Part shown: positions 24,071-52,331 of the stretch, piece by piece
How positions within the stretch are numbered: the first letter of the stretch is position 1
Layout of the letters: every line of letters starts with the position of its first letter
Assembly (NCBI GenBank): GCA_018262245.1
Contig: JAGTRV010000013.1
Location: forward strand, 1 to 53,824
Source of the DNA: Pseudomonadota bacterium
GTDB taxonomy: Bacteria; Pseudomonadota; Gammaproteobacteria; Burkholderiales; Rhodocyclaceae
Length of the DNA stretch: 53,824 bases
Reading direction: 5' to 3'
Made by a program: the position numbers and the translations under genes
The notes under the pieces: generated by a model
What the model was told of the DNA's origin: nothing
The model's database searches: none
What the model saw: the letters and a program-made list of their open reading frames with translations, nothing else

Positions 24071-24310
24071 ATGGATTCGATTGGCCTGATTCGCGATTTT
24101 CTCAAGGACCGCCTTGGTGTCGAGCCGGAAAACGTTGTTTCCGGTGCGGTGCTGGCCGACCTGGGCGTCGACTCGCTAATGATGCTTGAACTGATGTTCG
24201 AATTCGAAGATCGTTTTGGCATCAAGCTTTCCAGTGACCTGAAAACCCCCCGGACGGTTGGCGAGATGGTCACGCTGATGGACGGGTTGTATTCCCAGTC
24301 GAAGAGTTAA
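24071..24310 (+). CDS. Acyl carrier protein, aryl-polyene type (ACP1)
   Basis: A 79-residue carrier protein. The phosphopantetheine site is Ser35 in LGVDSLMMLEL, followed by the FEFEDRFGI helix typical of ACPs. First gene of block A, 3 bp before the ketosynthase gene. By analogy with known aryl-polyene systems it carries the aryl starter or the growing polyene. The ATG at 24071 is the only sensible start (MDSIGLIRDFL). Confidence 0.92.
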   Translation: MDSIGLIRDFLKDRLGVEPENVVSGAVLADLGVDSLMMLELMFEFEDRFGIKLSSDLKTPRTVGEMVTLMDGLYSQSKS

Positions 24311-24313
24311 GGC

Positions 24314-25564
24314 ATGAGCCAGCGGCGGGTTGCGATCACTGGCCTCGGGCTGGTCAGTCCTTATGGCGGTAACACCGACGATTTCTTTACGCGCCTGTGC
24401 GCCGGCCAGTCGGCGGTCGGCCATCTGCTGACCGACGATGTGCCACGCCCGCTCTCCATCCCCTTTGTCAGCTGTTCTGGCTTCGATCCCGATGTCGCGC
24501 TCGGCAAGCCGCTGGCCAGCATGATGGACCGCTTCGCCCAGCTTGGCATGGCGGCGGCCTTTGAGGCCTGGGACAACGCCGGCCTGGCGCGCCAGGCGGA
24601 CGGCGAATCCCGCGACGACTGGGGTGTCGCCTGGGGGACGGCGCTGGGCGGCACACTGGCTTACGAAAAAGGCTACCGCGAGCTGTGGCAGCAAGGCCGT
24701 GAACGCCTGTCGCCACTGACGGTCATACTCGGCATGAACAATGCGGCAAATGCCCACATGTCGATCCAGCTCGGGCTGGGTGGCGTCAGCATGAGCCATA
24801 CCGTGGCCTGTGCCTCATCGGCCATCGCCATCGGCGAAGCTTTCCGTCGCGTCCGTAGCGGCGAGGCGACGATCATGCTCACCGGCGGCTCCGACGTGCC
24901 GCAGGCCTACGGCGTTGCCCGCGCCTGGGAAGCCTTGCGCGTCATGGCGCCTGGCGACGCCGAGACTTCTGCTGTCGCCTGCCGGCCGTTCTCGGTCGAC
25001 CGGCGCGGCCTGGTGCTGGGCGAGGGCGGCGCTGCCTTGGTGCTCGAAGACTGGGAGCACGCCATTGCTCGCGGCGCCCGGATTCATGGTGAGATTGTGG
25101 GCTATGGCACCAGTTGCGACCACAGTCATCTGGTTCGTCCGGAAGCGGCTGGCCAGGTGCGCGCCCTGCAACTGACGCTGGCCGATGCCGGTCTGAACCC
25201 CGGCGAAATCGACTACGTGAATGCCCACGGCACCGCGACGACCGAGGGCGACCCGGTTGAAATCACCGCGCTGAAGACAGTTTTCGGTAATCATGCCGAG
25301 CGTCTGGCAGTCAGTGCAACCAAGTCGATGCACGGCCATTCGCTGGGCGCTGCTGCCGCCATCGAAGCCATTGCGACCGTGCTTGCGCTGCGTGAGCAGA
25401 CTGTTCCACCCACCGCCCATCTGGCGCAACTGGATCCGGCGTGCACTGGCGTCGACCACGTCACCACTGCCCGGACCGGCCAGCCGCTGCGGGCAGCATT
25501 ATCCAACTCCTTCGCCTTTGGCGGCAGCAACGCGGTGCTCGCGTTCCGTGCCGTCGTCCAGTAA
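24314..25564 (+). CDS. Beta-ketoacyl-ACP synthase (KS1, FabF-like)
   Basis: A 416-residue condensing enzyme that extends the ACP-bound chain with malonyl units. The catalytic triad is complete: Cys166 in VACASSA, His305 in NAHGTATTEGD and His342 in HGHSLGAAA; the C-terminal FAFGGSNAVL motif is present. In aryl-polyene pathways one KS pairs with a chain-length factor; which of the two KS here does so is not visible. It lies between the two ACP genes. Confidence 0.93.
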   Translation: MSQRRVAITGLGLVSPYGGNTDDFFTRLCAGQSAVGHLLTDDVPRPLSIPFVSCSGFDPDVALGKPLASMMDRFAQLGMAAAFEAWDNAGLARQADGESRDDWGVAWGTALGGTLAYEKGYRELWQQGRERLSPLTVILGMNNAANAHMSIQLGLGGVSMSHTVACASSAIAIGEAFRRVRSGEATIMLTGGSDVPQAYGVARAWEALRVMAPGDAETSAVACRPFSVDRRGLVLGEGGAALVLEDWEHAIARGARIHGEIVGYGTSCDHSHLVRPEAAGQVRALQLTLADAGLNPGEIDYVNAHGTATTEGDPVEITALKTVFGNHAERLAVSATKSMHGHSLGAAAAIEAIATVLALREQTVPPTAHLAQLDPACTGVDHVTTARTGQPLRAALSNSFAFGGSNAVLAFRAVVQ

Positions 25565-25582
25565 AACCACGGAAGCACCACC

Positions 25583-25867
25583 ATGTCTGAAGCCTTTACC
25601 CCGGAAGCTGTCGAAGCCCTGTTGCCGGAAGTCGCTGCACTGATCATTTCGGCGCTCAATCTCGACATGGCACCGGGTGAAATCGAGGCTGACGCGCCCC
25701 TGTTCGGAGATGGCCTCGGCCTCGATTCGATCGACGTGCTCGAAATCGCGCTGGTCATTTCCAAGCAGTATGGCTTCCAGTTGAAGTCCGACAACGAGGA
25801 CAACATCCGTATCTTTTCCTCGCTGCGCGCCCTGACTGCTCACATCGCTAGCCAGCGAACCAAATGA
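25583..25867 (+). CDS. Phosphopantetheine-binding carrier protein (ACP2)
   Basis: A 94-residue carrier protein with the attachment site Ser49 in GLGLDSIDVLE and a longer N-terminus than ACP1. Two distinct ACPs are usual in aryl-polyene clusters. The last 4 bp overlap the next gene. Confidence 0.92.
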   Translation: MSEAFTPEAVEALLPEVAALIISALNLDMAPGEIEADAPLFGDGLGLDSIDVLEIALVISKQYGFQLKSDNEDNIRIFSSLRALTAHIASQRTK

Positions 25868-26529
25868 CCATCACCACGGGCCAGTTGTTGCGCGGCCTGG
25901 CCGTGGTCGTCTTTCTCGTGCTGTGGGCCGTGCTGGCCCATTTCGGCAGCGCTGGCGAGAGCTCGGCCGATCTCTCCGTGCTGCTTGGCGTCGCCCCCAT
26001 TGTTACCGCCCTCGGCCTGATGCTCTGGCGCACCACCCATCCTGTCTTGATCGGCAGCGGCATCGTGCTCATGCTCGGCGGACTGACCTGGCTATGGCCG
26101 ACGATGCGTCAGAACATCCCGCTACTTTTCTTCATCCAGCACCTGGGCACCAATCTGGCGCTCGGCACGCTGTTTGGTCGCAGCCTGCTGGGTAGCGGCG
26201 AAGCCTTGATCACCCAACTGGCCAAAGCCGTGCATCACGGTGAAATTTCCGAGCACAAACGGCGTTACACGCGCAAGGCTACGTTAGCCTGGACGCTGTT
26301 TTTCCTCGGCAACGCGCTGATCTCCACCATCCTCTGGTTGCTGGCGTCGCAATCCGCCTGGTCAGTCTTCGCCAACCTGCTGTCGATGCCGTTGCTGGCA
26401 GCCATGTTTATCGCCGAGCACTTCTGGCGGGTAGTCGCTTTGCCGCCGGAAGAGCGGCCAAGCATTGCCCAAGTGGCCCGCGCCTATCGCATGCACGGCA
26501 AGCAGACACCGCCGGCCAAGCCGTCATGA
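25864..26529 (+). CDS. Membrane protein of aryl-polyene cluster (COG4648-like)
   Basis: A 221-residue protein with about six hydrophobic segments and a short basic C-terminus. It resembles the conserved membrane protein found between the ACP and ligase genes of aryl-polyene clusters; its function is unknown. It overlaps both neighbours by 4 bp, which supports a shared pathway. Confidence 0.8.
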   Translation: MTITTGQLLRGLAVVVFLVLWAVLAHFGSAGESSADLSVLLGVAPIVTALGLMLWRTTHPVLIGSGIVLMLGGLTWLWPTMRQNIPLLFFIQHLGTNLALGTLFGRSLLGSGEALITQLAKAVHHGEISEHKRRYTRKATLAWTLFFLGNALISTILWLLASQSAWSVFANLLSMPLLAAMFIAEHFWRVVALPPEERPSIAQVARAYRMHGKQTPPAKPS

Positions 26530-27902
26530 CCAGCGCGCCGCTGCTCGCCCACAAAGATCCCGAGGCAGTCTTCGCCTGGCGCCCGGACGGCCCGGTCAGC
26601 GTTGGCGAATATCTGGCCGATGCTGCGGCGCTGGCCGGTCAACTGCCAGCCACCGGCTACCTGCTCAACCTGTGCCACGACCGTTACCGCTTCGCGGTTG
26701 GCTTTGCCGCCGGCCTGCTGCGCGGCATGACCAGCCTGCAACCCTCATCGCAATCGGCCGAGACTCTGCGCCGCCTGCAGGCCGATTATCCGGGCCTCGT
26801 CTGCCTGTGCGACGGGGATACAGAAACGCTGGATCTGCCCTGCCTCGACTTTCCCGACCTGGCCGTTCCCCGGGGGGAATTCCTGCAGGGTGCAGGCAAC
26901 CGGAAAAACGAGCCAAAAACGGAATTTTCTGCCCCGCAGATTCCGGCCGACCACGTTGCCGCCATCCTGTTTACCTCCGGTTCAACCGGCCTGCCGCAAG
27001 CCCAGCCCAAGACCTGGAAAAAGTTAGTACAGAACGGCCGGGCCGAGGCCATCGCGCTTGGCCTTGACCGCCAGCCGCACGCCATCGTCGGCACCGTGCC
27101 GGTCCAGCACAGCTACGGTTTTGAATCGACCTTCCTGCTCGCCCTGCACGGTGGCGGGGCTTTCTGGGCCGGCAAACCCTTCTTCCCGCAGGACATCGCC
27201 ACGGCGCTCGACGCCGTGCCGCAGCCGCGCCTGCTGGTCACCACGCCTTTCCATTTGTCGACCCTGCTCGCCGCCGGCCTCGACCTGCCACCGGTCGACC
27301 TGCTGCTCTCGGCCACCGCACCACTGTCGACGACACTGGCCGCCGAAGCCGAAGCCCGCACCGGCGCTCCCTTGCTGGAAATCTATGGCTCGACCGAATC
27401 CGGCCAGCTGGCCAGTCGACGCACCACCGACGGTCCGGTCTGGACGCTGCTGCCTGGCGTCCGCCTGGAAACGGAGGACGACAGGACCATTGCCTGCGGT
27501 AACCATGTCGAAGGACGTGTCGCGCTTTCCGATCTGATCGAACTGCTGCCCGAGCACCGCTTCCTGCTGCATGGGCGCCACGCCGACCTGATCAACATCG
27601 CCGGCAAACGCACCTCGCTGGCCTATCTGAACCACCAGCTCGGCGCCGTGCCCGGTGTCATCGATGGCACCTTCTTCCTGCCCGACGAGGCAGGTCCGGA
27701 TGGCATTACCCGCCTCACGGCCTTCGTCGTGGCCCCAGGGCTGAGCGCGCGGCAAGTCACCGTCGCCCTGCGCGAACGGATCGACGCCATTTTCCTGCCG
27801 CGACCGCTGGTGCTGGTCGACGAACTGCCGCGCAACAGCACCGGCAAGCTGCCGCGCGGCGAACTGCAGGCGCTGTATGCCGAAAAGGTCAGCCATGGCT
27901 GA
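26526..27902 (+). CDS. AMP-dependent ligase for the aryl starter unit
   Basis: A 458-residue adenylating enzyme of the acyl-CoA synthetase class. The P-loop FTSGSTGLPQ is at about 149-158, YGSTESGQ at about 286-292, the hinge region GRHADLINIAGKR near 350-362 and the C-terminal catalytic Lys in NSTGKLPRG near 440. It is shorter than typical 500+ residue ligases, as in the aryl-polyene ligases that activate 4-hydroxybenzoate and load it on an ACP. The likely substrate is hydroxybenzoate from the chorismatase at 49310-50314. Confidence 0.88.
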   Translation: MTSAPLLAHKDPEAVFAWRPDGPVSVGEYLADAAALAGQLPATGYLLNLCHDRYRFAVGFAAGLLRGMTSLQPSSQSAETLRRLQADYPGLVCLCDGDTETLDLPCLDFPDLAVPRGEFLQGAGNRKNEPKTEFSAPQIPADHVAAILFTSGSTGLPQAQPKTWKKLVQNGRAEAIALGLDRQPHAIVGTVPVQHSYGFESTFLLALHGGGAFWAGKPFFPQDIATALDAVPQPRLLVTTPFHLSTLLAAGLDLPPVDLLLSATAPLSTTLAAEAEARTGAPLLEIYGSTESGQLASRRTTDGPVWTLLPGVRLETEDDRTIACGNHVEGRVALSDLIELLPEHRFLLHGRHADLINIAGKRTSLAYLNHQLGAVPGVIDGTFFLPDEAGPDGITRLTAFVVAPGLSARQVTVALRERIDAIFLPRPLVLVDELPRNSTGKLPRGELQALYAEKVSHG

Positions 27903-28194
27903 TTTTCACTGGATCGTCCCGGACAACCACCCGGCCTTCGCCGGCCATTTCCCCGGCAAACCCATCGTGCCGGGCGTCGTGTTACTCGACCGGGCCATTC
28001 TGTTCGCCGAACAACTGCTCGGCCAGCCCAATCTGGCCTGGCAGGTCGGCAATGCCAAATTCTTCAGTCCGGTCGGCCCGGGCGAAAACCTGATTTTCGC
28101 ACTGGAAGCGAAGGCCAGCGGCAGCATCGCCTTCACCGTTCGCGCCGCCGATCGCGATGTGGCCTCGGGCAGCCTGAAACCGCCAACGCCATGA
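27895..28194 (+). CDS. Hotdog-fold dehydratase (ApeI/FabZ-like)
   Basis: A 99-residue single hotdog domain. The active-site motif NHPAFAGHFPGKPIVPGV (11-28) has the catalytic His18; the length and motif match the small ApeI-like dehydratases that remove water from 3-hydroxyacyl-ACP during polyene synthesis. The start at 27895 overlaps the ligase gene by 8 bp; a GTG-like start six codons earlier is less likely. Confidence 0.88.
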   Translation: MADFHWIVPDNHPAFAGHFPGKPIVPGVVLLDRAILFAEQLLGQPNLAWQVGNAKFFSPVGPGENLIFALEAKASGSIAFTVRAADRDVASGSLKPPTP

Positions 28195-29096
28195 GCGAGA
28201 AAAGCGAGTCCGACTGGTTACGTCAGCAGGAGCGCAGCAATCTGGTCATCCTGAAGCTGATGGTGTGGATTTCGCTGACCTTCGGCCGGGCCATCGGGCG
28301 CATCGTGCTCTACGGGATCGCCGCCTATTTCGTGCTGTTCTCACCCAAGGCCCGCCGTTTCAGCCGCGACTACCTGCACCTGGCGCTGAATCGCTGGGCC
28401 GAATGGGCGGACGGCTTTCGCCATGTGTTCAGCTTCGCGAGCACGATCCACGACCGCATCTACCTGCTCAATGATCGTTTCGACCTGTTCGATATTGAGG
28501 TGATCGGCGCCGAAGCAATCAATGAAGCCGCCCGCAGCCATCCTGGCGCCTTGCTGATCGGCGCTCATCTCGGTAGTTTCGAGGTATTGCGCGCCGTCGG
28601 CCGCGGCAGGGAAGGGCTGAAGGTGGCGATGGTGATGTATGAGGAAAACGCCCGCAAGATCAACGCCACGCTGGAAGCGATCAACCCGGCGGCCAGCCAG
28701 GACATCATCCCGCTTGGCCGCATGGACTCGATGTTGCAGGCGCGCGACCGACTGGACGAGGGCTACGTCGTCGGCATGCTGGCTGATCGCGGGCTCGGCG
28801 GCGACCCAACGGTCGACTGCGAGTTTCTCGGCAAACCGGCCCCGTTTCCACTCGGCCCTTTCCGCATGGCCGCCATGCTGCGCCGACCCGTTTTCTTCAT
28901 GACCGGCCTCTACCTTGGCGGCAACCGCTACCAGCTGCACTTCGAGCCTCTGGCCGATTTTTCGCAGACCCCGCGTGAAGAGCGCGAGGCGGCAATCCGC
29001 AGCGCCATGCAGCACTACGCCGACCGGCTGACCCATTTTTGCCATCTGGCGCCGTACAACTGGTTTAATTTCTTCGATTTCTGGCAGAAAAAATGA
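28191..29096 (+). CDS. LpxL/HtrB-like acyltransferase
   Basis: A 301-residue inner-membrane acyltransferase with an N-terminal membrane helix (about 24-48) and the catalytic motif H-x4-E (HLGSFE, about 126-131). In aryl-polyene clusters this class is thought to attach the polyene or a fatty acid to the lipid anchor. In several known clusters it is fused to a glycosyltransferase; here that glycosyltransferase is a separate gene at 46916-47674. It overlaps both neighbours by 4 bp. Confidence 0.87.
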   Translation: MSEKSESDWLRQQERSNLVILKLMVWISLTFGRAIGRIVLYGIAAYFVLFSPKARRFSRDYLHLALNRWAEWADGFRHVFSFASTIHDRIYLLNDRFDLFDIEVIGAEAINEAARSHPGALLIGAHLGSFEVLRAVGRGREGLKVAMVMYEENARKINATLEAINPAASQDIIPLGRMDSMLQARDRLDEGYVVGMLADRGLGGDPTVDCEFLGKPAPFPLGPFRMAAMLRRPVFFMTGLYLGGNRYQLHFEPLADFSQTPREEREAAIRSAMQHYADRLTHFCHLAPYNWFNFFDFWQKK

Positions 29097-29662
29097 TCAA
29101 ACGACTACTTGGCGGTCTGTTTATATGCGCCCTCGCCTTGCCGGCCAGCGCCGCATTCGATGTTGGCCAGCTGATGAGCGACCTGGCCAAACACAAGGGT
29201 GGCAAGGCTAAATTCGTAGAGAAAAAATACATTTCGCTACTCGACAAGCCCGTCGTCTCGACCGGCGAAATGACCTACACCGCGCCCGACCGTCTGGAAA
29301 AACGGACGCTGACGCCCAAAGTCGAAACCCTGCTGCTCGACAAGGACATCCTGTCCATCGAACGCGAGAAGCAGAAACTGAGCATCAACCTGGCCAATCA
29401 GCCGGAGGCACTGGCCTTCGTGGACAGCATCCGCGGCACTCTCGCCGGCAACCGGGCGGCGCTGGAAAAAAATTATGCGCTCTATCTGTCTGGCAACTCG
29501 GACAAGTGGGTGCTGACGCTGCTGCCCAGCGAGCAAAAAATCGCCGCCATGGTCCAGCGCATCACGGTCAGCGGCAGCAAGAATCAAGTCCGCAATATCG
29601 AATATCTGCAGGCCGACGGTGACCGCTCAGTGCTGAGCATCGATCCGATCGAAACCCAATGA
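29093..29662 (+). CDS. LolA-like outer-membrane lipoprotein carrier
   Basis: A 189-residue periplasmic protein with a signal peptide (cleavage after ASAA, about residue 20) and a LolA/LolB-like fold of repeated beta strands (AKFVEKKYIS, GEMTYTAPDRLEKR). Probably shuttles the hydrophobic pigment across the periplasm. It overlaps the acyltransferase and exporter genes by 4 bp each. Confidence 0.87.
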   Translation: MIKRLLGGLFICALALPASAAFDVGQLMSDLAKHKGGKAKFVEKKYISLLDKPVVSTGEMTYTAPDRLEKRTLTPKVETLLLDKDILSIEREKQKLSINLANQPEALAFVDSIRGTLAGNRAALEKNYALYLSGNSDKWVLTLLPSEQKIAAMVQRITVSGSKNQVRNIEYLQADGDRSVLSIDPIETQ

Positions 29663-32010
29663 CCCGACCGGCCGGCCGTGCTCTGCTGATCTGGCTGTTG
29701 GCCATGCTGGCCGGGGGGCTGGTCGTCTGGAACAGCCATTTCTCGGCCGACATGTCCTTCTTCCTGCCAGCCAAGCCAAGTGCTGAACAGCAGGTACTGG
29801 TCGACCAGCTCAAGGAAGGGGTCGTTTCCCGCCTGCTGATGGTTGCTATCGAAGGCGGCGATGCAGGGCAACGGGCGACTGCCTCGCGCGACCTGCGCGG
29901 TCGACTGCAAAAACTGCCCGATTTCGCTTCGGTGCAGAACGGCGAGACCGCCAGCCTGGATGCCGACCGCGATTTTCTGTTCCACCACCGCTACCTGCTC
30001 AGCCCGGCCGTCAAGCCGGAGCGTTTCACGGTAGACGGCCTCCACGACGCTGTGGCCAACAGCATCGACCTGCTCGCCTCACCGGCTGGCATGATGCTGA
30101 AGCCCTTCTTGGCGCGCGACCCGACCGGCGAACTGGTCGAGATGCTGTCCGGCCTCAACGCCGGCGCCCAACCGAATGTCAGTGATGGCGTCTGGGCCTC
30201 GCGCGATGGCGAACGCGCCATGCTGCTGATCCAGACGACCGCCCTCGGCTCCGATACTGACGGTCAGGAAAAGGCCATCGACCTGATCCGCAGCCAGTTC
30301 TCGGCAGGCACGCCCGGTGGCGAACTGAAGGTGCAGCTCTCCGGCCCCGGCCTGTTCGCGGTCAAATCGCGGGAAACCATCAAGGCGGAAGTCAGCCGGC
30401 TATCCACGATCAGCACATTGGCCATCATCGCAGTGCTCTTCTTCGTCTATCGCTCGGCTCGCCTGATGACGCTCGGCCTGTTGCCGGTCGTCAGCGGCGC
30501 ACTGGCCGGCATCGTCGCGGTCAGCCTGGCTTATGGCACGGTCTTCGGCATCACCGTCGGCTTCGGCTCGGCGTTGATCGGTGAGGCAGTCGATTACTCG
30601 ATCTACTATTTCGTCCAGTCCAGCCGGCTCGGCGTCGATCAATGGCGTGAACGCTTCTGGCCAACCATCCGGCTCGGCGTACTGGCCTCGATTTTTGGTT
30701 TCGCCGCGCTGCTTTTTTCCGGCTTCCCCGGCCTTTCACAGCTCGGACTCTATTCGCTGAGCGGCGTTCTCACTGCCGCGCTGGTCACCCGTTTCATCCT
30801 GCCGCCGCTGGCCGGACAAAATTTTGCCATGCGTGACCTCAGTCATCTCGGCCCGGTGCTCAAGCGCAGCATCACCATGCTGCAAGCGCTGCGCTGGCCA
30901 GTACTCCTCCTGACCCTGGTTGCGACGGCCTTTCTCGCCGCCAACCACGATCACCTGTGGCACCCGAACCTGTCGGCGCTAAGTACGGTCAGCGCCGAAG
31001 ATGGCGCCGTCGACCAGGCCCTGCGCGCCGACATTGCCGCCCCGGATTCCCGCTACATGGCAGTCATCACTACTGAAAACCGCGAAGCCGCGCTGCAGGC
31101 AGCCGAACGCGCCGGGCATCAACTCGACGGCCTGATCGCCCAAGGCATTATCGGTGGCTACGACAGCCCGGCTCGCTTCCTGCCCAGCCAGGCCATGCAG
31201 ACCAGTCGCCGCGCCAGCCTGCCGACAAGCGACGAACTGCAATCCCGCCTGCAAGCGGCACTGACCGATTCGCCACTGGCTGCCAACAAGCTGGGGGGCT
31301 TCATTGAAGACGTGGCCAAAGCCAGGGAGCAAGGCAGCCTGAGCCGCGAAACGCTGAATGGCACCAGCCTGGCCTTGGTGGTCGATTCGCTGCTGCTCCA
31401 ACGCCCGAACGGCTGGAGCGTACTGCTACCGCTGCGCCCGCCCGGTGGCGACAAGGGGATCGATATCGCCATCGAACCGGTACGTGCCGCGCTGGCCGGC
31501 AGCGGCGCCTTGTTCATCGACATGAAAAACGAGTTCGACACGCTGTACAACGACTACCTGCACGAGGCGACACTGCTCTCGCTGGCCGGTTTCGCCGCTA
31601 TCGTCGTGCTGCTGGCGGTCACGCTGCGCTCCCCCCGGCGGCTGGCCACCGTGCTGTTGCCGCTGCTGATTGCCGTCGTGCTGGTCATCGCCGGCCTGCA
31701 TCTGGCTGGCGAGCGACTACACCTGCTGCACCTGATCGGTATGCTGCTGATCGTCGCCGTCGGCTCCAACTATGCACTGTTCTTCGACCGGGCCGCCAAC
31801 GGGGAAGGGCTGGACAGCCCGACGCTGGTCTCGATGACCGTCGCCAACCTGACCACGGCCATCGGCTTCGGCACCCTGGCCTTGTCCAACGTGCCGGTAC
31901 TGCACGCCGTCGGCGCCACGGTCGGGCCGGGTGCGGTACTCGCCTTGCTGCTCTCGGCCTGCTTTGTCGGGAAAAAACAGCCAGGCGTTTCACGTGGAAC
32001 CGAGGCATGA
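29659..32010 (+). CDS. MMPL/RND-family exporter
   Basis: A 783-residue inner-membrane exporter with two repeats of one plus five membrane helices and two periplasmic domains. In the first repeat the conserved GxxxDY proton-relay segment is GEAVDYSIYY with Asp312. In the second repeat the equivalent position is Asn704 (GSNYALFF), with an Asp five residues further on. It presumably lifts the pigment or its lipid conjugate out of the inner membrane and hands it to the LolA-like protein. Confidence 0.88.
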   Translation: MTRPAGRALLIWLLAMLAGGLVVWNSHFSADMSFFLPAKPSAEQQVLVDQLKEGVVSRLLMVAIEGGDAGQRATASRDLRGRLQKLPDFASVQNGETASLDADRDFLFHHRYLLSPAVKPERFTVDGLHDAVANSIDLLASPAGMMLKPFLARDPTGELVEMLSGLNAGAQPNVSDGVWASRDGERAMLLIQTTALGSDTDGQEKAIDLIRSQFSAGTPGGELKVQLSGPGLFAVKSRETIKAEVSRLSTISTLAIIAVLFFVYRSARLMTLGLLPVVSGALAGIVAVSLAYGTVFGITVGFGSALIGEAVDYSIYYFVQSSRLGVDQWRERFWPTIRLGVLASIFGFAALLFSGFPGLSQLGLYSLSGVLTAALVTRFILPPLAGQNFAMRDLSHLGPVLKRSITMLQALRWPVLLLTLVATAFLAANHDHLWHPNLSALSTVSAEDGAVDQALRADIAAPDSRYMAVITTENREAALQAAERAGHQLDGLIAQGIIGGYDSPARFLPSQAMQTSRRASLPTSDELQSRLQAALTDSPLAANKLGGFIEDVAKAREQGSLSRETLNGTSLALVVDSLLLQRPNGWSVLLPLRPPGGDKGIDIAIEPVRAALAGSGALFIDMKNEFDTLYNDYLHEATLLSLAGFAAIVVLLAVTLRSPRRLATVLLPLLIAVVLVIAGLHLAGERLHLLHLIGMLLIVAVGSNYALFFDRAANGEGLDSPTLVSMTVANLTTAIGFGTLALSNVPVLHAVGATVGPGAVLALLLSACFVGKKQPGVSRGTEA

Positions 32011-32642: not shown

Positions 32643-32644
32643 CC

Positions 32645-34164: not shown

Positions 34165-34168
34165 TCCA

Positions 34169-35296: not shown

Positions 35297-35311
35297 ACCG
35301 CCGCTCCCGCT

Positions 35312-36637: not shown

Positions 36638-36663
36638 GATGTTCCCCTTAAGCAAACGCTTAT

Positions 36664-39060: not shown

Positions 39061-39086
39061 CTATGCTTCCCGTATCGGACCTGACC

Positions 39087-43422: not shown

Positions 43423-43529
43423 ACGATGCAAGCATTCTGATGGTTAGGCAGTGATTTGGCGGATTAAAAATAATTCACCTTGCACTCCCGCCGAATGGTC
43501 GGATTTAGTCCTTCCCAGGAGGATCCGCC

Positions 43530-43909: not shown

Positions 43910-43942
43910 AATGAGCTGCCAATTGATTGGAGGAGGAAAGCC

Positions 43943-44535: not shown

Positions 44536-45735
44536 TCAGGCCGAACGCTGGATCAGCGATTTCAGCCGCGCCAGCTTGGGTGCGACAATTGGCACCGTCA
44601 GCATGGTGCTGGCCACCGCCATCAGCAGCAAGGCCGTGAAGGTTTCACTGGTGATGATTTTCTTGTCGAGCAGGATGTTGGCGAAAATGATCATGATCAG
44701 CGCCTTGGTCTGCAGCAGCCAGCCAATGATGCTCGCTTCGCCTGGCGCCCATTTGAGTATCCTGCCGGCGACGTGAACACCGATCAGCTTGCCGGCCACA
44801 GAAACAACGAGCAGCAGCGCGGCGGCGATGAAGACAGCGGCCCCCCCGACATCCCAGTTGGTGCGCAGGCCGGTGGACAGGAAGAAAACCGGCATGATGA
44901 CCAGCAACACGTGGTGACGTAGCAGATCCATTTTTTCCTGATCGAACCACACCGCCTCCATGCTCGCGCCGGCCAGGAAGGCCCCGACCATGAAATGCAG
45001 CCCGGCCCAGTCGGCGCCGAAGGAAACCACGGCCAGCCAGATCAGCGCAGCATACCAGCGGTCGCTCTCGCCAAGGCGCGACATCAGCTTGTGGAACAGC
45101 CAGGCGGCGATGGCAAAGGTGAGCAGGAAGGCACCTTGCCGGCCAATGCGTTCCCAGTCCATCAGGATCAATGCCAGCACACCCCAGATCGCAATATCGT
45201 CGAGGCTGGCGTAGCGCAGGATGCGCTGGCCGATGGGCTGACGCAGGACTTCGAGCTTTTCCATGAGCAGGATGAGGATGGGCAAGGCGGTCACCGCGCA
45301 GGCCATGCCGACGCCGACGACGAACTGCCAGGTCAGCGCCTTCGGCCCCATCCATCCGTCAAAACCGAGCATCAGTGCCGCCGCCGCACAGCCGAAAAGC
45401 AGCGGTGTGCCCAAGGCCAGGCCGGCCGTGATGCCGCTTTCCCGGCGATGTACCCAGGCCTTCTTGAGGTCGAGTTCAACGCCGGCAATCATCACGAACA
45501 ACATGACTGCCCACCAGGCAATGCCGTTGAGCGACTGGACGACCGTCGGGTTGAAGACAAACTGGTAGTACTCCGGGAAGACCCGGCCAAGAATGCCCGG
45601 CCCGAGCAGGATGCCGGTGATGATCTGGACCACCACCAGCGGCGCGAAATAGTCAGTCTTGCCGAGGCGCCAGATCAGGTAGGGCACCGTAAAGATGATC
45701 GTCATCGCGATCAGGAAAACTTCGGTCGTATTCAT
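44536..45735 (-). CDS. Cation:proton antiporter, CPA2/KefB-like
   Basis: A 399-residue inner-membrane protein with about twelve hydrophobic helices and the Na+/H+ exchanger fold (GILLGPGILG near 40, FVMIAGVELDLKKAW near 80, CAVTALPILI near 150). There is no C-terminal TrkA-N domain, unlike KefB/KefC. The ion is sodium or potassium, not determinable here. It overlaps the HPP/CBS gene by 4 bp. Confidence 0.87.
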   Translation of the reverse strand: MNTTEVFLIAMTIIFTVPYLIWRLGKTDYFAPLVVVQIITGILLGPGILGRVFPEYYQFVFNPTVVQSLNGIAWWAVMLFVMIAGVELDLKKAWVHRRESGITAGLALGTPLLFGCAAAALMLGFDGWMGPKALTWQFVVGVGMACAVTALPILILLMEKLEVLRQPIGQRILRYASLDDIAIWGVLALILMDWERIGRQGAFLLTFAIAAWLFHKLMSRLGESDRWYAALIWLAVVSFGADWAGLHFMVGAFLAGASMEAVWFDQEKMDLLRHHVLLVIMPVFFLSTGLRTNWDVGGAAVFIAAALLLVVSVAGKLIGVHVAGRILKWAPGEASIIGWLLQTKALIMIIFANILLDKKIITSETFTALLLMAVASTMLTVPIVAPKLARLKSLIQRSA

Positions 45736-46904
45736 TTGAGTTTTTCGAGAGAAAACCAGGTCTGGGCCGCCGCCGCCGCCTGCCGCTTGTAGATCGCTGC
45801 CAGCAGGTCGGTCTGGGTCAGCACCCCAGCCAGCCGCTGGCGCTGGTCGACGACCGGGATGATGCTTGGGTGTTCGTCAGCAAGCAGCGAGACGGCCACT
45901 TCACCGAGCGGCGTATCGGTCTGCACCTTCATGAAACGTTCGCTCATGATCTGGCCGACCACCTCGGGCTTGTCCGAGTAGATGGATGGCGTCTTTCGCA
46001 GCAGCCGGCGGATGTTGTCACCGATGCCCTGGACGCCATCCGGCTCGACATGGCGGAGAAAGTTTTCCAGCGTCAGCACGCCGATCACCCGTTGCCCGGC
46101 ATCGATCACCGGTACGCCGTGCAGGTGCCGGGTCTGCAGCAGGGCCCATGCCTCGTTCAACTCGGTGCCGAAATTCACGCTGATCACATCGGTCGTCATG
46201 ATGTCAGCGCAGACTCGCCGTTCATGGCGCCGGTGGGCATGGTTGGTGGCCAGATCATAGATTTGCACCAGATCTTCCTCGCTGATGTCGAGATAAGTAT
46301 CGAGTTTCTCCAGCGCGTATTGAATATCTTCGTGACGAATGCTGCGGCGCACCGGCCGGTCCTTTTTGGCGACCTGCGTGGGTGGCAGACATTGCGGATA
46401 ACGCCGGCCGGGAATCAGGTTATTGATGACCAGCACCGCCATCATCGCTGCCCCGACGTTGAGCAAGGCGGTCAGCAAGGAAGTTGAATGCTGCTGGGCG
46501 CTCAGCGCAAACACCACGGCCATGGCACCACCCGGCGGGTGGATGCAGCGCAGCCAGGCGGTCATCCAGATGGCCAGACCAAGCGCGACGCCGACTGCGA
46601 GGAAGGCCGGCGTGATCCATAGCCCGCAAAAATGCCCGATCAGTGCCGAGATGAACAAACCGCCAGCCAACGACCACGGCTGAGCCAGCGGGCTATGCGG
46701 CAGGGCGAAGAGAATGACTGAACTGGCCCCAAGCGGCGCCAGCAGATAGCTGATCCCTGGCCCGACCGGCAGCACTGTGAGTATGCCCTGCATCAGCAGA
46801 ATACCGAGCAGGCCAGCCAGCGCGCTTAGCCAGCGTTCTCGCGGTGAAAGCGGCGCCGCATCGGCAATCAGGTAGCGCAGCGCAAACTGGTGCAGGTTTT
46901 TCAT
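45732..46904 (-). CDS. HPP-family membrane protein with CBS domains
   Basis: A 390-residue protein: an N-terminal HPP domain of four to five membrane helices with the eponymous RCIHPPGGAMAV near 123-134, a linker, then a C-terminal CBS pair (DIMTTDVISVNFGT near 245; QIMSERFMKVQTD near 315). HPP proteins may transport nitrite; CBS pairs sense adenine nucleotides. The start at 46904 (MKNLHQF) lies 11 bp after the glycosyltransferase stop, although the frame is open further upstream. Confidence 0.87.
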   Translation of the reverse strand: MKNLHQFALRYLIADAAPLSPRERWLSALAGLLGILLMQGILTVLPVGPGISYLLAPLGASSVILFALPHSPLAQPWSLAGGLFISALIGHFCGLWITPAFLAVGVALGLAIWMTAWLRCIHPPGGAMAVVFALSAQQHSTSLLTALLNVGAAMMAVLVINNLIPGRRYPQCLPPTQVAKKDRPVRRSIRHEDIQYALEKLDTYLDISEEDLVQIYDLATNHAHRRHERRVCADIMTTDVISVNFGTELNEAWALLQTRHLHGVPVIDAGQRVIGVLTLENFLRHVEPDGVQGIGDNIRRLLRKTPSIYSDKPEVVGQIMSERFMKVQTDTPLGEVAVSLLADEHPSIIPVVDQRQRLAGVLTQTDLLAAIYKRQAAAAAQTWFSLEKLK

Positions 46905-46915: not shown

Positions 46916-47674
46916 TCAGCCAAACAAGCGGCGCAGCAGCAGCCAGGGCAGACGCAGCACAAAACCAAGAAATAGCCGGGTATGCATCCAGGTCAGCAAG
47001 GTATTGTCGCGCAGGTAGCGGAAGTGCGAGACGCCGCCCTGATCGGCCCGGAAGTAGCGCACTGGCGCATCGATATTGACCGGTTTGACCCCTGCCCAGC
47101 ACAGCCTGACCACGGCTTCGGGGTCAAAATCGAAACGACGCATGAAACGATTGGCCCGCATGATTTTCATCAGCGGCTGGACGGGATAGACGCGAAAGCC
47201 ATAAAGCGAATCACCAATCCCCATCCACAAGGTTTCCAGATTGGCCCAGCCATTCGATACCTTGCGACCATTGACGCGCAGGGCCGGCGCATCGGCATCG
47301 AAGACCGGCTTGCCGAGCACCATGCTGGCAGGCTCTGCCTGAGAGGCGGCCATGAAAGCCGGGATCAGGTCGGCCGGGTGCTGGCCGTCGGAATCCATGG
47401 TCAGCACATGGCTGAAGCCAGCGGCGGCAGCGTTGGAGATGCCTTCGAGCACGGCCGCGCCCTTGCCCCGGTTTTCCGGTAGAACGATGACTTTCAGGCC
47501 GTCATTGGTCGCCGCCAGGGCCTGCAATTTTTCGGCGCTGCCATCGGTGCTGCCATCGACGACCACCCAGACCGGCGTCCATTGCGCCAAGGCGGCACGC
47601 ACGGTATCGAGTACCTTGGGGCCGGGGTTGTAGCTGGGAATCAGGACGAGATGGGTGTTTGAAGCGGCGGGCAT
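46916..47674 (-). CDS. Glycosyltransferase family 2 protein
   Basis: A 252-residue GT-A fold enzyme, dolichol-phosphate-mannose-synthase-like: LIPSYNPG near 11-18, VVDGSTDGSAE near 38-48, PENRGKGAAV near 65-74 and the metal-binding DSDGQH near 93-98. A hydrophobic C-terminus suggests membrane association. In related pigment clusters such an enzyme is fused or adjacent to the LpxL-like acyltransferase, so it likely glycosylates the pigment or its anchor. It follows the PlsC-like gene by 12 bp. Confidence 0.88.
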   Translation of the reverse strand: MPAASNTHLVLIPSYNPGPKVLDTVRAALAQWTPVWVVVDGSTDGSAEKLQALAATNDGLKVIVLPENRGKGAAVLEGISNAAAAGFSHVLTMDSDGQHPADLIPAFMAASQAEPASMVLGKPVFDADAPALRVNGRKVSNGWANLETLWMGIGDSLYGFRVYPVQPLMKIMRANRFMRRFDFDPEAVVRLCWAGVKPVNIDAPVRYFRADQGGVSHFRYLRDNTLLTWMHTRLFLGFVLRLPWLLLRRLFG

Positions 47675-47686
47675 GACGAAATGGGT

Positions 47687-48469
47687 TCAGGCAGCGCAGG
47701 CTGCAGTCGATGGGGATTCCCGGCCTAATTCCGAACGGAAGTAGGTTTCGAGTTCACTGGTAAAAACCTGGAGATTGGCCTGCGGCGGAAAGCTGCGGCC
47801 AAGGCGGATACGGCAACGCAGCGGCAGGGAAGGGCGGCGGAACAGCGGCCAGGCCTTGCCGAGATAGGGTGTCGAGAATTCAATCAACAGCGTCTGAACC
47901 GGCGACTTGCTCCGACTGGCAATCAGGCCAACACTTGGTGAGCAGGCATCGACCGGAAAATTCAGCGTACGCGAACCTTCCGGAAAAATGACCAGATGAG
48001 CACCTTGTTCCAGAGCTTCGCGTGAATTGAGGATCATCTCGAGCCCCACGTCATTACGGATATAGCGCGCCAGCCGGGCAGCAGCACCGAACAGCAGGTT
48101 ATCCATCAGCGAAGCCTTCATGACGCAGACCGCGTTGGGCAACCGGGAAACGATCATCACTGCATCGAGCAGGGAAGGATGGTTGGCCGCGACAATCAGC
48201 GGCCCTTTATCGCGCAGCAGGTCGATTTCTTTCAGGTCAAAGCGGCAGGCGCAGAACAGCGAAAGAAGGCGCAGATAAACGCGAAAGCCAAAGGAGATCA
48301 TGGCACGCCCCAGTGGCTGGCCCAGACGTCGGGGCAGCAGGGGATTCAGGATCAGCGCACAAGGCAGCCAGAGCAGGCAAACCAGTGCCAGCCCGCCCAA
48401 ACCGATGATCATGGCGACGTATTCGTAGGCCATCCACAACGGATTGCCTGCGCCGCTACGATCAGTCAT
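47687..48469 (-). CDS. PlsC-like lysophospholipid acyltransferase
   Basis: A 260-residue membrane acyltransferase with an N-terminal hydrophobic segment (about 18-45), the HX4D motif NHPSLLD (His97, Asp102) and FPEGSRT at 162-168. The start at 48469 overlaps the MipA/OmpV gene by 8 bp. It is the second acyltransferase of the pigment locus and may acylate the lipid anchor. Confidence 0.9.
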   Translation of the reverse strand: MTDRSGAGNPLWMAYEYVAMIIGLGGLALVCLLWLPCALILNPLLPRRLGQPLGRAMISFGFRVYLRLLSLFCACRFDLKEIDLLRDKGPLIVAANHPSLLDAVMIVSRLPNAVCVMKASLMDNLLFGAAARLARYIRNDVGLEMILNSREALEQGAHLVIFPEGSRTLNFPVDACSPSVGLIASRSKSPVQTLLIEFSTPYLGKAWPLFRRPSLPLRCRIRLGRSFPPQANLQVFTSELETYFRSELGRESPSTAACAA

Positions 48470-49310
48470 CGGCCTGCACGCGGGTCGAGGATTCCCCAAG
48501 TATCCAGGTGATGGCGATGCCCCCAGCGACATAATTTTTCTGACGAACCAGCGGGCTGTCCTCGAAAGTCGAACCGCTCAGATTGTCGTAGCGCACGAAT
48601 CCGCCGACCCAGTATTTCGGAAAACGCTTCGACAGGGCGACCAGATATTGCATGCCGGCATAGCCGGACTTCGCCTCATAGACCGGACGATCAGCCGTCG
48701 CATATTGCGGGGCGACCGAATAATAGTAGGCGTGCTGCCGCTTGTCGCCGAACAACGGGCCGGCCAGCATGCCGAGATTCCAGCCGCCCATGCCGGGAAT
48801 GTCCGTGATGTCCATGTTCAGCTTGGGATGGAAGACCCAGCCGATATCCTTGGGCGAACCCTCAACCGTGAAAGCGGCCCGCAAGGGCAGCAGCAGCTTG
48901 ACGAAACGGGCACGATTTTCTGAACGCCAGAAGGTAACGTCCATTTGCGGGCCAATCTCGAAGGTCGCCTCAAGATCCGGCATCCCGGCGCGGGCCCGGA
49001 TGTCGTCGCTACTACCAGGCGGCGAAAGCGCCATGCTCACCGTCAGGTCGAGGCGGTCCGAATCGAAGAAACTGCCGCGGATACCATGTCGGTCAGCCTT
49101 GAAAAAGTCACCGTGATAGGTGAAATGCGGGACCGGCATCAGGAAGTTATTGGTCTGGTCGGAACCGCGATAGGACGGAAAGCTGAAAGCCGCAACACCA
49201 GCCCCCAGCTCCCACAGCGGCTTGTCTTCAGCCGCCGGCGCACCGGAAACGACCAGCGTCATGCCGAGAGCAGACAGCGCACCGGTCCAGAACTTGTTCG
49301 ACTTGGCCAT
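48462..49310 (-). CDS. MipA/OmpV-family outer-membrane protein
   Basis: A 282-residue beta-barrel protein with a signal peptide (cleavage after GAPA, about residue 26). The mature start WELGAGVAAFSFPSYRGSDQ is the family signature. It ends in a polar extension rather than a terminal Phe. The ATG at 49310 overlaps the chorismatase stop by one base (TGATG). Possible role: outer-membrane end point for the pigment or MltA-interacting scaffold. Confidence 0.85.
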   Translation of the reverse strand: MAKSNKFWTGALSALGMTLVVSGAPAAEDKPLWELGAGVAAFSFPSYRGSDQTNNFLMPVPHFTYHGDFFKADRHGIRGSFFDSDRLDLTVSMALSPPGSSDDIRARAGMPDLEATFEIGPQMDVTFWRSENRARFVKLLLPLRAAFTVEGSPKDIGWVFHPKLNMDITDIPGMGGWNLGMLAGPLFGDKRQHAYYYSVAPQYATADRPVYEAKSGYAGMQYLVALSKRFPKYWVGGFVRYDNLSGSTFEDSPLVRQKNYVAGGIAITWILGESSTRVQADD

Positions 49311-50314
49311 CAACGATTCCCCAAGGTATGCGAGGCCATCGCCTCGATTTCGAGCAACAAATCCTGCCGGCAGATATCCGCCTGCACATAGACGATTTCC
49401 GCCTGGCCGATCAGTAATGCCAGTGTCTCCCGGATCGCCGGGAAGTCACCGGCCTGACGCACGTAAACGCGATACGACAACTCACCCAGCTCGAACGGTT
49501 GCGAACGACACTGCCGCTTGGATTCGGCCAGCACCGCCTCGATATTGGCCATCGCTTCCCGACACTGGCCGACCGCATCACCGGGGTGCACGGTCTGGTG
49601 ACCGACAATACTGGCCGTGCCGGAAATAAACAGTAACTCCTGATCCGGCAAGTAGGCGAGGGCTGCCCGCGAAAATGTCGGGCTCCGCGGACCGTAGTCC
49701 GCCGGGTAGTTGTACGCGCTGACCTGGCGAGGGTTTTCGACCGGCGCAGCCGGCGTCTCGCCGGCCATGAAGGCGATGCTCAACGGCCCGCCAACCAGCC
49801 CGATCGCACAAGCGGCCGGCACATTGCCGGTCGCGCCACGATGAAATTCGAGGAAGGCATCCTGGCGACCAATGTTGAACTGCCGATAGCGCTCCAGCCC
49901 CTGAGTATCCAGATTGATCTCGGCCAGGTAATTCCAGACCCGCCACAGATGCGGCACCTGCTCGGTATCCAGCAGACGGAATATACGGCGGTAGGCTTCT
50001 GCGCTGGCTGCCTGCAGCGATGAACAATCAGGCGAAGCCTTGAAATCGGCCTCGTCCAGTTCGATCACGCCAAACAGCAGCCCTCCCGCCTTGCGCCAGA
50101 CAATGCCTTCGCAATGCCCCGACATGACAGGCATGTCCACCCGCCATGTCTCATGAACGACCGCTGAAGTTGCCCCGAGCAAAGGGGCAAAAATGCGCTG
50201 CACCGGCCAGACCGGGATGGCGCCATTGGGCGGTTCGCCAACCAGGGCACCACCAAGTTCGCCGCCGGTTTCACGTGAAACCACGGACTGTGAAGAAAGG
50301 AACTGAAGCACCAC
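49310..50314 (-). CDS. Chorismatase, FkbO/Hyg5/XanB2-like (hydroxybenzoate-forming)
   Basis: A 334-residue enzyme with the two-domain chorismatase layout. The N-terminal part holds RVWNYLAEIN near 125-134 and ERYRQFNIGRQDAF at 141-154; the C-terminal RidA-like part holds NYPADYGPRSPTFSRA at 202-217, ISGTASIVGHQ at 230-240 and ADICRQDLLLEIE at 312-324. XanB2 of Xanthomonas converts chorismate to 3- and 4-hydroxybenzoate, the head group of xanthomonadin and a ubiquinone precursor. GTG start; one-base overlap with the halogenase-like gene stop (TAGTG). Confidence 0.9.
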   Translation of the reverse strand: MVLQFLSSQSVVSRETGGELGGALVGEPPNGAIPVWPVQRIFAPLLGATSAVVHETWRVDMPVMSGHCEGIVWRKAGGLLFGVIELDEADFKASPDCSSLQAASAEAYRRIFRLLDTEQVPHLWRVWNYLAEINLDTQGLERYRQFNIGRQDAFLEFHRGATGNVPAACAIGLVGGPLSIAFMAGETPAAPVENPRQVSAYNYPADYGPRSPTFSRAALAYLPDQELLFISGTASIVGHQTVHPGDAVGQCREAMANIEAVLAESKRQCRSQPFELGELSYRVYVRQAGDFPAIRETLALLIGQAEIVYVQADICRQDLLLEIEAMASHTLGNR

Positions 50315-51648
50315 TATGCGTTGTAAACGACGGCGTCGTCGACCTTGCGAATGTTGAACTTGCGGCGTTTCCAGCCCATGAAGGCCTTCTTTGGCTGCGT
50401 GATGTTGGCGATGTAATAGAGCATTTTGAAGGCGAAGATCGACGACCAGATCGGTGTCTTGCCGAAAATGTCACCGGCCAGCATCGAAAGCACAGCTTCC
50501 TTGGCTCGGAACAGGTTGCGCGGCCCCATGAAGAATTCGCGCATGATCGGGTTGGTCACGCGGTAGATGAACCATGAGAATTCCTTCGGTCCATGCTTCA
50601 TCAGCGCATCGAATTTCTTCAGCGCAGCCGGTGCCTTGGCCGGGGTTTTCAGGCAGGTATCGATGGCTTCGGCCGCGATCACCCCACTGTTCATGGCCAG
50701 CAGAACGCCCGAAGAGAACACCGGATCAATGAAGGCATAGGCATCGCCGAGCATCACGTAGTTGGTGCCGTGATTGCGCTCGGAGACATAGGAGAAGTTG
50801 CCGGTCGCCTCGATCTCGTTGATCAGCTTTGCATCCTTCAGACGCTCGGTCAGCTTTGGGCACTGGGCAAACCCATCGCGCAGGAACTGCTCGAGGCTGC
50901 GCTCGCCCTTGGTTTTCATGTAATACGGCCAGGTCACCATGCCGATACTGGTAATGTCGTTCTGCATCGGGATGAACCAGAACCAGCCATGTTCAAACCA
51001 GAAAATGGTGATGTTGCCTTCAGCCTGCCCCTCATGACGCTGGGCGCCAGTGAAGTGACCGTAGATCGCCGAACTGTTGTGCTTGGGATTACGGTGCTTG
51101 ATCTGGAAACGATTGGCCAGGAAAGTGTCGCGGCCTGAAGCATCGACGACGAAGCGGGCCTGCCATTCAATTTCCCGGCCATCGTCGGACACAGCACGGA
51201 TGGCGGCCGTGTTGTCAGGCAGGAAATCGACCGCCTTTGCTTTACAGCCCTCATGAACCTCAACACCCTTTTTCTCGGCGTTACGGATCAGGATAGTGTC
51301 GAATTGATCGCGCTTGACCTGGTAGGCGTAGGGCATGCTTTTGTCCCAGGCCTCGGCGAAGTTGAAGACCGATGACATGTCATGGTGCGGCGAAACAAAC
51401 TCGGCACCTGGCTTGAGCATGCCGATCGCCTTCACTTCCTCGGCGATACCCATCCGCTCGAACAGTGGCAGATTGGCCGGCAATAGCGATTCGCCGATGT
51501 GAAAACGCGGGTGGTGTGCCTTTTCCAGCATTACCACCTTGTAACCTTTTTCGGCCAACATCGGGGCAACCGTCGAACCGGCTGGCCCGCCGCCGATCAC
51601 CAGAACATCGCACTGCCGACGCTCTACACCCTGTGCTTGCTGTTCCAT
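50314..51648 (-). CDS. FAD-dependent halogenase-like protein
   Basis: A 444-residue flavoprotein of the tryptophan-halogenase/PHBH-like group. FAD-binding GGGPAG is at 19-24, FHIGESLLP at 49-57, a halogenase-type WFWFIP (WxWxIP pattern) at 222-227, GDAYAFIDPVFSSG at 301-314 and Lys79 in MLKPGAEF at the place of the catalytic Lys. The halogenase motifs suggest it may brominate or chlorinate the aryl head, as xanthomonadins are brominated; a reductase or hydroxylase role is not excluded. First gene of the tight block C. Confidence 0.85.
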   Translation of the reverse strand: MEQQAQGVERRQCDVLVIGGGPAGSTVAPMLAEKGYKVVMLEKAHHPRFHIGESLLPANLPLFERMGIAEEVKAIGMLKPGAEFVSPHHDMSSVFNFAEAWDKSMPYAYQVKRDQFDTILIRNAEKKGVEVHEGCKAKAVDFLPDNTAAIRAVSDDGREIEWQARFVVDASGRDTFLANRFQIKHRNPKHNSSAIYGHFTGAQRHEGQAEGNITIFWFEHGWFWFIPMQNDITSIGMVTWPYYMKTKGERSLEQFLRDGFAQCPKLTERLKDAKLINEIEATGNFSYVSERNHGTNYVMLGDAYAFIDPVFSSGVLLAMNSGVIAAEAIDTCLKTPAKAPAALKKFDALMKHGPKEFSWFIYRVTNPIMREFFMGPRNLFRAKEAVLSMLAGDIFGKTPIWSSIFAFKMLYYIANITQPKKAFMGWKRRKFNIRKVDDAVVYNA

Positions 51649-51692
51649 CGTTGCTACCCTTTACTCATTCTCTGTGGCGGCGATCAGTATTC

Positions 51693-52331
51693 TTATTTGC
51701 CCTTGTAGGTCATGTAGACGACGGTTTCGGAGTGACCGTCGATCTTGCTGACGCTTCCCTTGGTCCAATACACGTAATACGGACCAAAGCTCGACCACCA
51801 GTAACGCCAGTACGGGCCATCCAGACGCTGATTCTCGTTGGTCTGCGGATGGCCGACCGAGATGATGACCTGTTCCTTCGTCATCCCCTTCATCAACTGA
51901 CCCTTGGCAATCGCATTGCGCACGGCCGGGGAATACTTGGCCATTTTCACTTTCGGATCATCGAGCACGACCAACTTGTTCACCCATTGCTCGGTTGTTT
52001 CTTCGGCTCGACCATAATCGTGACCAAGGCGCATCGGCTTGCCATCCACCTCGACATAGGCACGGTAGCCATCAATTCTCAGCACCTTGATCGGTGTTCC
52101 TGCCGCAATGAATGGCAGCTGGGCCAGATTGGAATCACTGATCCAATCGCCGGAATAATGCAGGTTGCAGCACGCGTAACCACTACGAATACCGGTTTCC
52201 TTTTTGGCCTCGACCACCGGCTTGCCTTCCTCTGGCTTTGTATCGCTCCCTTTGCAGGCAGAAAGCAAGGCAATCACGCAGAAGACAGCGCCAAGCACTG
52301 AAAAGCGGCTAAAAACGAATTTTTCCTTCAT
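51693..52331 (-). CDS. Putative lipoprotein, unknown function
   Basis: A 212-residue protein with a lipobox LLSAC (Cys26). The N-terminal half (SGYACCNLHYSGDWISD near 50-66, IKVLRIDGYRAYVEVDGK) is beta-rich. The C-terminal part, KGMTKEQVIISVGHPQ near 148-163 followed by an aromatic PYWRYWWSSFGPYYVYW, resembles a SmpA/BamE-like fold. It is 39 bp downstream of the radical SAM gene and 44 bp upstream of the halogenase-like gene. Confidence 0.8.
   Translation of the reverse strand: MKEKFVFSRFSVLGAVFCVIALLSACKGSDTKPEEGKPVVEAKKETGIRSGYACCNLHYSGDWISDSNLAQLPFIAAGTPIKVLRIDGYRAYVEVDGKPMRLGHDYGRAEETTEQWVNKLVVLDDPKVKMAKYSPAVRNAIAKGQLMKGMTKEQVIISVGHPQTNENQRLDGPYWRYWWSSFGPYYVYWTKGSVSKIDGHSETVVYMTYKGK

Follow-up and report, generated by a model that had tools for sequence, protein, structure and literature searches.

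The locus described here, on a contig of a Rhodocyclaceae bacterium (JAGTRV010000013.1, assembly GCA_018262245.1), probably encodes an aryl-polyene pathway of the arcuflavin, that is xanthomonadin-like, type. The window is the whole contig (53,824 bases) of a genome of 3.78 Mb that is divided into 379 contigs and is 83.85% complete. The genus of the source genome includes named Dechloromonas and Azonexus strains, and the gene set is probably the one by which a bacterium of this kind makes a yellow membrane pigment that resembles arcuflavin, a published compound. The genes lie in three blocks: blocks I (24071-34164) and II (39063-42233) on the plus strand, and block III on the minus strand, running to the contig end.

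We favor this reading because the locus matches, gene for gene, the arc set of Azoarcus sp. BH72, which mutants have tied to a pigment. Schoner et al. (2014) list arcA-arcL and arcM-arcX in that organism, including genes for a halogenase, a chorismatase, a Na+/H+ antiporter, a methyltransferase and a deacetylase (PMC3949708). There is no linkage between the two arc loci, and mutants in arcK and arcT, one for each locus, were colorless (PMC3949708). Compared with the published gene table, arcA-E, arcG-K and arcM-V all have counterparts in the window, with the order kept inside each locus. The original prediction, made from the letters of this DNA, had recognized a xanthomonadin-like aryl-polyene locus, and both the gene content and the arc counterparts bear this out.

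Gene content of the locus

Open reading frames (ORFs) were listed and their starts refined. The 30 proteins encoded in 24071-53819, leaving out ORF 43505-44185, were compared with Pfam and 20 of them with NCBIfam. The gene content and order were read directly from the window as follows.

Block I
24071..24310, plus: acyl carrier protein 1 (ACP1; PF00550)
24314..25564, plus: ketosynthase 1 (KS1), FabF-like (PF00109/PF02801)
25583..25867, plus: acyl carrier protein 2 (ACP2), arcV-like (PF00550)
25864..26529, plus: membrane protein, arcU-like by position (no Pfam match)
26526..27902, plus: AMP ligase, arcT-like by position (PF00501)
27877..28194, plus: dehydratase 1, FabA-like, arcS/ApeI-like (PF07977, 30.5 against a cut-off of 23)
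28191..29096, plus: LpxL-like acyltransferase, arcR-like (PF03279)
29093..29662, plus: LolA-like carrier, arcQ-like (PF19574)
29659..32010, plus: MMPL exporter, arcP-like (PF03176)
32007..32642, plus: alpha/beta hydrolase at the arcO position (PF12697)
32645..33445, plus: CE4 polysaccharide deacetylase, arcN-like (PF01522; refined start)
33442..34164, plus: S-adenosylmethionine (SAM) methyltransferase, arcM-like (PF08242/PF13489; scanned as 33340-34164; refined start)

Past block I
34169..35296, plus: DUF1615 protein (PF07759), starting 4 bp past the methyltransferase gene

Block II
39063..40277, plus: ketosynthase 2 (KS2), arcK/ApeO-like, elongation (NCBIfam NF006618, 549.7 against a cut-off of 407)
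40274..41077, plus: chain-length-factor (CLF)-like protein, arcJ/ApeC-like (PF13723; scanned as ORF 40031-41077)
41071..41517, plus: dehydratase 2, arcI-like by position
41514..42233, plus: ketoreductase (KR), arcH-like (PF00106; FabG model, 379.8 against 273)

Block III
44536..45735, minus: cation/H+ exchanger, presumably KefB-type, at the arcG position (PF00999)
45732..46904, minus: HPP/CBS membrane protein (PF04982, PF00571)
46916..47674, minus: GT2 glycosyltransferase, arcE-like (PF00535)
47687..48469, minus: PlsC-like acyltransferase, arcD-like (PF01553; scanned as 47687-48532)
48462..49310, minus: MipA/OmpV outer-membrane protein, arcC-like (PF06629)
49310..50314, minus: FkbO/Hyg5-family chorismatase, arcB/XanB2-like (PF21168, 132.5 against 27)
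50314..51648, minus: flavin halogenase-like enzyme, arcA-like (PF04820; halogenases matched in PDB)
51693..52331, minus: lipoprotein-like protein with a weak BamE-like C-terminus (17.0 bits, under the cut-off of 23.2)
52371..53819, minus: B12-binding radical SAM enzyme, cut by the contig end (PF04055, PF02310)

All genes named in the original prediction are present, each with family-level support from Pfam or NCBIfam except dehydratase 2. Of the two dehydratases it called, the first is FabA-like by family, with 24.9 for the ApeI-like model PF22818 (cut-off 28.5). The second is assigned by its arcI position; it had no Pfam match at 0.01 (scanned as 40681-41517) and no NCBIfam match at 0.001. 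The chorismatase and the halogenase-like gene were missing from that earlier list, though both lie inside the region it covered. The tight overlaps of 1-8 bp that it noted inside the blocks are mostly right: the 14 junctions from ACP1 to the methyltransferase and from KS2 to KR comprise ten overlaps of 4-7 bp, a single 26-bp overlap given our choice of start, and three gaps of 2-18 bp. Block III has overlaps of 1-8 bp and gaps of 11-44 bp.

The core enzymes are those of arc- and xanthomonadin-type loci. KS2 is adjoined by a CLF-like protein that consists of an N-terminal ketosynthase domain alone. The solved structure closest in sequence to KS2 is 6qsp_A, while the CLF-like protein matched 7f28_A and 6qsp_B, such that the leading PDB matches of the two proteins are chains that pair with each other (6qsp_A/B and 7f28_B/A). 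We take 6qsp to be an aryl-polyene KS-CLF pair. An AMP ligase, KR, two dehydratases (the second by position), a LolA-like carrier, an MMPL exporter, acyltransferases and a glycosyltransferase complete the set, and a predicted flavin halogenase gene lies within the locus. KS1 scored 395.7 bits with the NCBIfam fabF model, under the cut-off of 493.75; by analogy with ApeR, it is likely the chain-initiating ketosynthase.

The chorismatase belongs to the FkbO/Hyg5/XanB2 fold, as it exceeds the PF21168 cut-off and matches the structures 4bps (FkbO) and 5ag3, presumably Hyg5. Its Cys315 aligns with a Cys of 5ag3, a Ser of 5a3k and an Ala of FkbO (4bps). Cys315 may correspond to the Cys that, with two Gly residues, is typical of the Hyg5 subfamily (PMC7170507). 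The product type of ArcB was considered unpredictable from sequence by its authors (PMC3949708).

A chorismatase within the locus also disfavors a flexirubin-type cluster, a reading that we regard as very improbable. Flexirubin models do match KR (FlxB, 294.0 bits) and the LolA-like carrier (LolA2_flexi, 58.9), but both scores fall under their cut-offs of 340 and 125, respectively.

Conservation of the layout among relatives

The original prediction considered this locus an unusual split and expanded cluster that could make an undescribed aryl-polyene variant, a reading that we now find improbable. The gaps in the window are real, about 4.9 kb between blocks I and II and about 4.7 kb between blocks II and III. 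In addition, the radical SAM gene, the lipoprotein-like gene, KS1 and ACP1 are absent from the arc rows of Table 1 for Azoarcus (PMC3949708). The layout was examined in 20 genus genomes with long contigs, hand-picked from 46 (own genome included) with a strong CLF match. Blocks I and II had identical order and strands in all 20 regions, so the split layout was rejected as a peculiarity of this genome; that the layout is common in related genomes is a result which the original prediction had itself set against its proposal. The gap between these blocks is 4899 bp in the window and 602 to 8942 bp in the relatives, and spans just 0.6-1.3 kb in 8/20 regions (in G019 and G053, it was measured from the deacetylase gene since there was no methyltransferase match). 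Block III follows in 18/20 fetched regions and, by match coordinates, in a 19th (G047), whereas it lies about 180 kb away in G023; the gap between blocks II and III is 1621 to 16058 bp in the relatives. As for the enzymes described as added, the deacetylase, methyltransferase, GT2 and PlsC-like enzymes all have Azoarcus counterparts (arcN, arcM, arcE and arcD), and the cluster type, together with dar genes, was already reported in 2014 in Dechloromonas aromatica RCB (PMC3949708).

Some variation was seen within this shared layout. Matches to the methyltransferase were missing from block I in G019 and G053 and to the hydrolase in G023, and the ACP1 match was missing in G039, whose fetched stretch begins inside the locus. 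MipA was missing from block III in 5/18 regions (G007, G009, G044, G019 and G053). The arcU-like membrane protein and dehydratase 2 were found in 20/20 regions, and DUF1615 is a frequent neighbor, located within the I-II gap in 16/20. Beyond the genus, among the 80 halogenase loci described below, the methyltransferase or deacetylase gene lies directly past KS2 in loci of Comamonadaceae (L104), Hydrogenophaga (L114), Zoogloea (L109 and L112) and Oryzisolibacter (L108). The gene order differs in G082, G240, G092 and G218.

The content of the I-II gap (34165-39062) varies within the genus, with a DcuA/B transporter in G002 and a periplasmic binding protein in G039; in G038 it is 602 bp with no matched genes. 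ORF 36882-37814 in the window had no Pfam match.

Block III is longer than originally described. It runs on one strand from the radical SAM gene through the genes for the lipoprotein-like protein, halogenase, chorismatase, MipA, PlsC, GT2 and HPP/CBS protein to the exchanger with gaps of no more than 44 bp, so the latter two look coupled to block III rather than separating. The exchanger was rejected as an unrelated gene since it occupies the arcG position and co-occurs with the halogenase across the genus. The HPP/CBS gene appears coupled but variable, being in the II-III gap in 3/18 regions that show this gap. In other lineages (L109, L112, L113, L116, L125 and L131), a distant cation/H+ exchanger (26-28% identity) occupies the slot between KR and GT2 in the opposite orientation; an exchanger seems to recur between KR and GT2 by more than one route.

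Active-site residues are conserved along with the layout. Cys-His-His triads were present in 20/20 genus regions for both KS1 and KS2, as was Ser49 of ACP2; Ser35 of ACP1 was conserved in 19/19 matched regions. Halogenase loci were also collected more widely, namely the 80 best among 167 confirmed relatives, with flanks of up to 10 kb and many on contigs too short to show layout. Lys79, WxWxIP and FxxPxxSxG of the halogenase-like protein are conserved in 80/80 loci and in 17/17 aligned of 18 regions, and Lys79 aligns on a Lys of 3e1t. For WxWxIP, the figure of 80/80 is circular in part because two of the six peptide patterns used for fetching the loci cover it; Lys79 is in none of them. Cys315 and Glu322 of the chorismatase were present in 69/69 aligned of 71 loci.

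Co-occurrence was examined in 60 genus genomes, which are related to one another and in part incomplete, for which reason the counts are given without p-values. A halogenase match at E 0.001 was found in 56, of which 49 were strong, including two by fragments (G001 and G008), and seven weak; 49 genomes were counted as with and 11 as without, several of the latter incomplete. The cation/H+ exchanger at E 1e-60 was found in 49/49 genomes of the first group and in 0/11 of the second. Chorismatase was present in 47/49 (a 47% match of G004 was counted as absent) and CLF in 46/49 (weak matches of G004, G032 and G041 were counted as absent); a divergent pigment locus may be present in G004. RecA identity to the own genome was 92-99% for the 11 genomes without a strong match, with that of G022 from a partial match. 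By this crude measure, these 11 are not one distant group. The first impression of novelty is corrected: most of the genus members examined have the pathway, to judge by the strong halogenase matches in 49 of 60 genomes.

The predicted pigment and the radical SAM gene

The reactions described below, and the product, are all predicted by analogy with characterized relatives. The chorismatase would convert chorismate to 3-hydroxybenzoate, which the AMP ligase would load onto an ACP. KS1 probably starts the chain and the KS2-CLF pair would elongate it with malonyl units, with KR and the two dehydratases leaving one double bond in each cycle. The methyltransferase probably O-methylates the ring, which the halogenase-like enzyme may halogenate. 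The polyene would then be esterified, most likely to a dialkylresorcinol from dar genes on contig C91, and the MMPL, LolA-like and MipA proteins would move the ester to the outer membrane. Envelope anchoring is the probable role of the acyltransferases, GT2 and deacetylase.

The published arcuflavin is a xanthomonadin-dialkylresorcinol hybrid, proposed to be a nonbrominated aryl-heptaene ester of dialkylresorcinol (PMC3949708). Dar genes, which are expected of such producers, are present elsewhere in this genome. A search of 12 genomes with PF08541 returned one ketosynthase III match in the own genome, on C91. The protein belongs to the StlD/DarB subfamily (601.7, cut-off 450), and C91 also encodes a neighboring DarG-family protein (174.6, cut-off 70) and a DarH-type acyltransferase that is cut by the contig end (404.8, cut-off 300). 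Because darB, darG and darH were found by family models, a polyene-dialkylresorcinol ester is our best prediction for the pigment, and we consider it reasonably likely.

Several observations weigh against parts of this assignment. No product is known from the source organism. The chorismatase scored 225.3 with TIGR04444, under the subfamily cut-off of 325, and DarB scored 490.9 with the stricter resorcinol_DarB model, under its cut-off of 550. The ORF before DarB had no NCBIfam match and is DarA by position only. DarB at E 1e-50 was found in 34/60 genus genomes, all among the 49 with a strong halogenase match (0/11 without); the 15 halogenase genomes with no DarB match imply that a dialkylresorcinol part is not obligatory. 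Finally, arcuflavin is nonbrominated though Azoarcus has arcA (PMC3949708). Why arc-type loci keep an intact-looking halogenase while arcuflavin has no bromine is a testable question.

The pigment could instead be xanthomonadin-like with no dialkylresorcinol, held by an acyl-glycolipid anchor as proposed for the aryl polyenes of E. coli, with the dar compound made separately. In its favor, the GT2, PlsC-like, LpxL-like and deacetylase genes are also present in the DarB-negative genomes G034 and G007. On the other hand, all 34 DarB-positive genus genomes have the halogenase gene, dar and pigment genes share one locus in G082, and the published arcuflavin is the hybrid (PMC3949708). We consider this alternative rather unlikely and retain the dialkylresorcinol ester as the prediction.

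A published pigment pathway accounts for the locus, for the way it is laid out and for most of the extra enzymes; the B12-binding radical SAM gene alone looks new, and it is the one modest lead above routine. It is cut by the contig end at 53824 and encodes 548-549 residues in most relatives. It was found at E 1e-60 in 44/49 halogenase genomes, plus G012, and lies 84-1402 bp from the halogenase gene in 44/44 genus genomes with both. In several relatives, housekeeping genes lie beyond it, which we take to be mnmE-, yidC- and dnaA-like; the neighborhood within the genus alone could therefore be inherited. Three families have the gene within or next to the pigment locus, as represented by the own genus, by G082, where the gene comes after GT2, both on one strand, and dar genes are also part of the locus, and by G240, where it adjoins GT2. 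Among 300 genomes drawn from the order, with up to five candidates scored per genome, the gene at E 1e-120 was found in five, three in the genus and two outside, all with a halogenase; the halogenase was present in 34/300, leaving 29 genomes with halogenase and no radical SAM gene. Identity of the radical SAM protein in the two out-of-genus genomes was 77-79%, compared with at most 72% for other window proteins matched there over more than 60% of their length. The gene was matched in 47/80 halogenase loci. The lipoprotein-like gene between it and the halogenase gene was matched in 29/80, including Plasticicumulans L116.

It is possible, though less likely than not, that an arcuflavin-type lineage recruited a dedicated B12 radical SAM enzyme for tailoring of the polyene, of the resorcinol or of the sugar/lipid anchor, for example by C-methylation or ring remodeling, to give an undescribed pigment. 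No such partner appears in the arc table for Azoarcus (PMC3949708) or the ape table for E. coli (PMC8253772), and a partial literature search found no xanthomonadin paper with a cobalamin-dependent radical enzyme. Two findings argue against pigment tailoring: five genus halogenase genomes, among them the fragmentary G001, have no radical SAM gene, and G012 has the gene with no pigment locus. The role of this enzyme is a second testable question. By sequence, the solved structures closest to it belong to radical SAM enzymes from other pathways, and a predicted structure (L097 as first row, 29 sequences) had a mean pLDDT of 56.0, too poor for a fold search. Identity with HpnJ was rejected, as its model TIGR03471, the best found, scored 168.8 against a cut-off of 577.6 with the N-terminally cut window protein.

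Elsewhere in the window, multihaem cytochrome-like, cytochrome b561-like and large outer-membrane-type proteins, as translations read by eye, are encoded in a row at 14921-18922 on the plus strand, possibly an electron-transfer module. ARAGORN called a tRNA-Pro (anticodon agg, 97 bases) at 7154-7250 on the plus strand amid overlapping ORFs, which may be spurious.

Comparison with known pigment systems

The apeA-R genes of E. coli, as tabulated, share with the window two ACPs, a ketosynthase pair with CLF plus an initiating ketosynthase, two dehydratases and a KR, as well as an acyl-ACP synthetase, a methyltransferase, a LolA-like protein and an RND-type transporter (PMC8253772). They differ in using a 4-hydroxybenzoate starter and in the fusion of glycosyltransferase and acyltransferase in apeJ, and their Table 1 contains no chorismatase, halogenase, deacetylase or radical SAM gene (PMC8253772). 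The yellow-pigment locus described for Lysobacter enzymogenes likewise has a type II ketosynthase with an adjoining CLF-like protein, a XanB2-type enzyme, two dehydratases, a KR and a LolA-like protein, but is a single cluster of 17 ORFs without a halogenase (PMC3691225). The xanthomonadin cluster of Xanthomonas has a halogenase, as here (PMC3691225), and xanthomonadins, unlike arcuflavin, have no dialkylresorcinol part (PMC3949708).

The closest likeness is to the Azoarcus arc genes as listed. One arc locus has, in the same order as here, the halogenase, XanB2-type chorismatase, MipA, acyltransferase, glycosyltransferase, Na+/H+ antiporter, KR, dehydratase, CLF-like protein and ketosynthase; the other has the methyltransferase, deacetylase, arcO, exporter, LolA, acyltransferase, dehydratase, AMP ligase, arcU and ACP. 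The Azoarcus loci are unlinked, whereas the blocks here are about 5 kb apart, and in both organisms the dar genes lie elsewhere in the genome.

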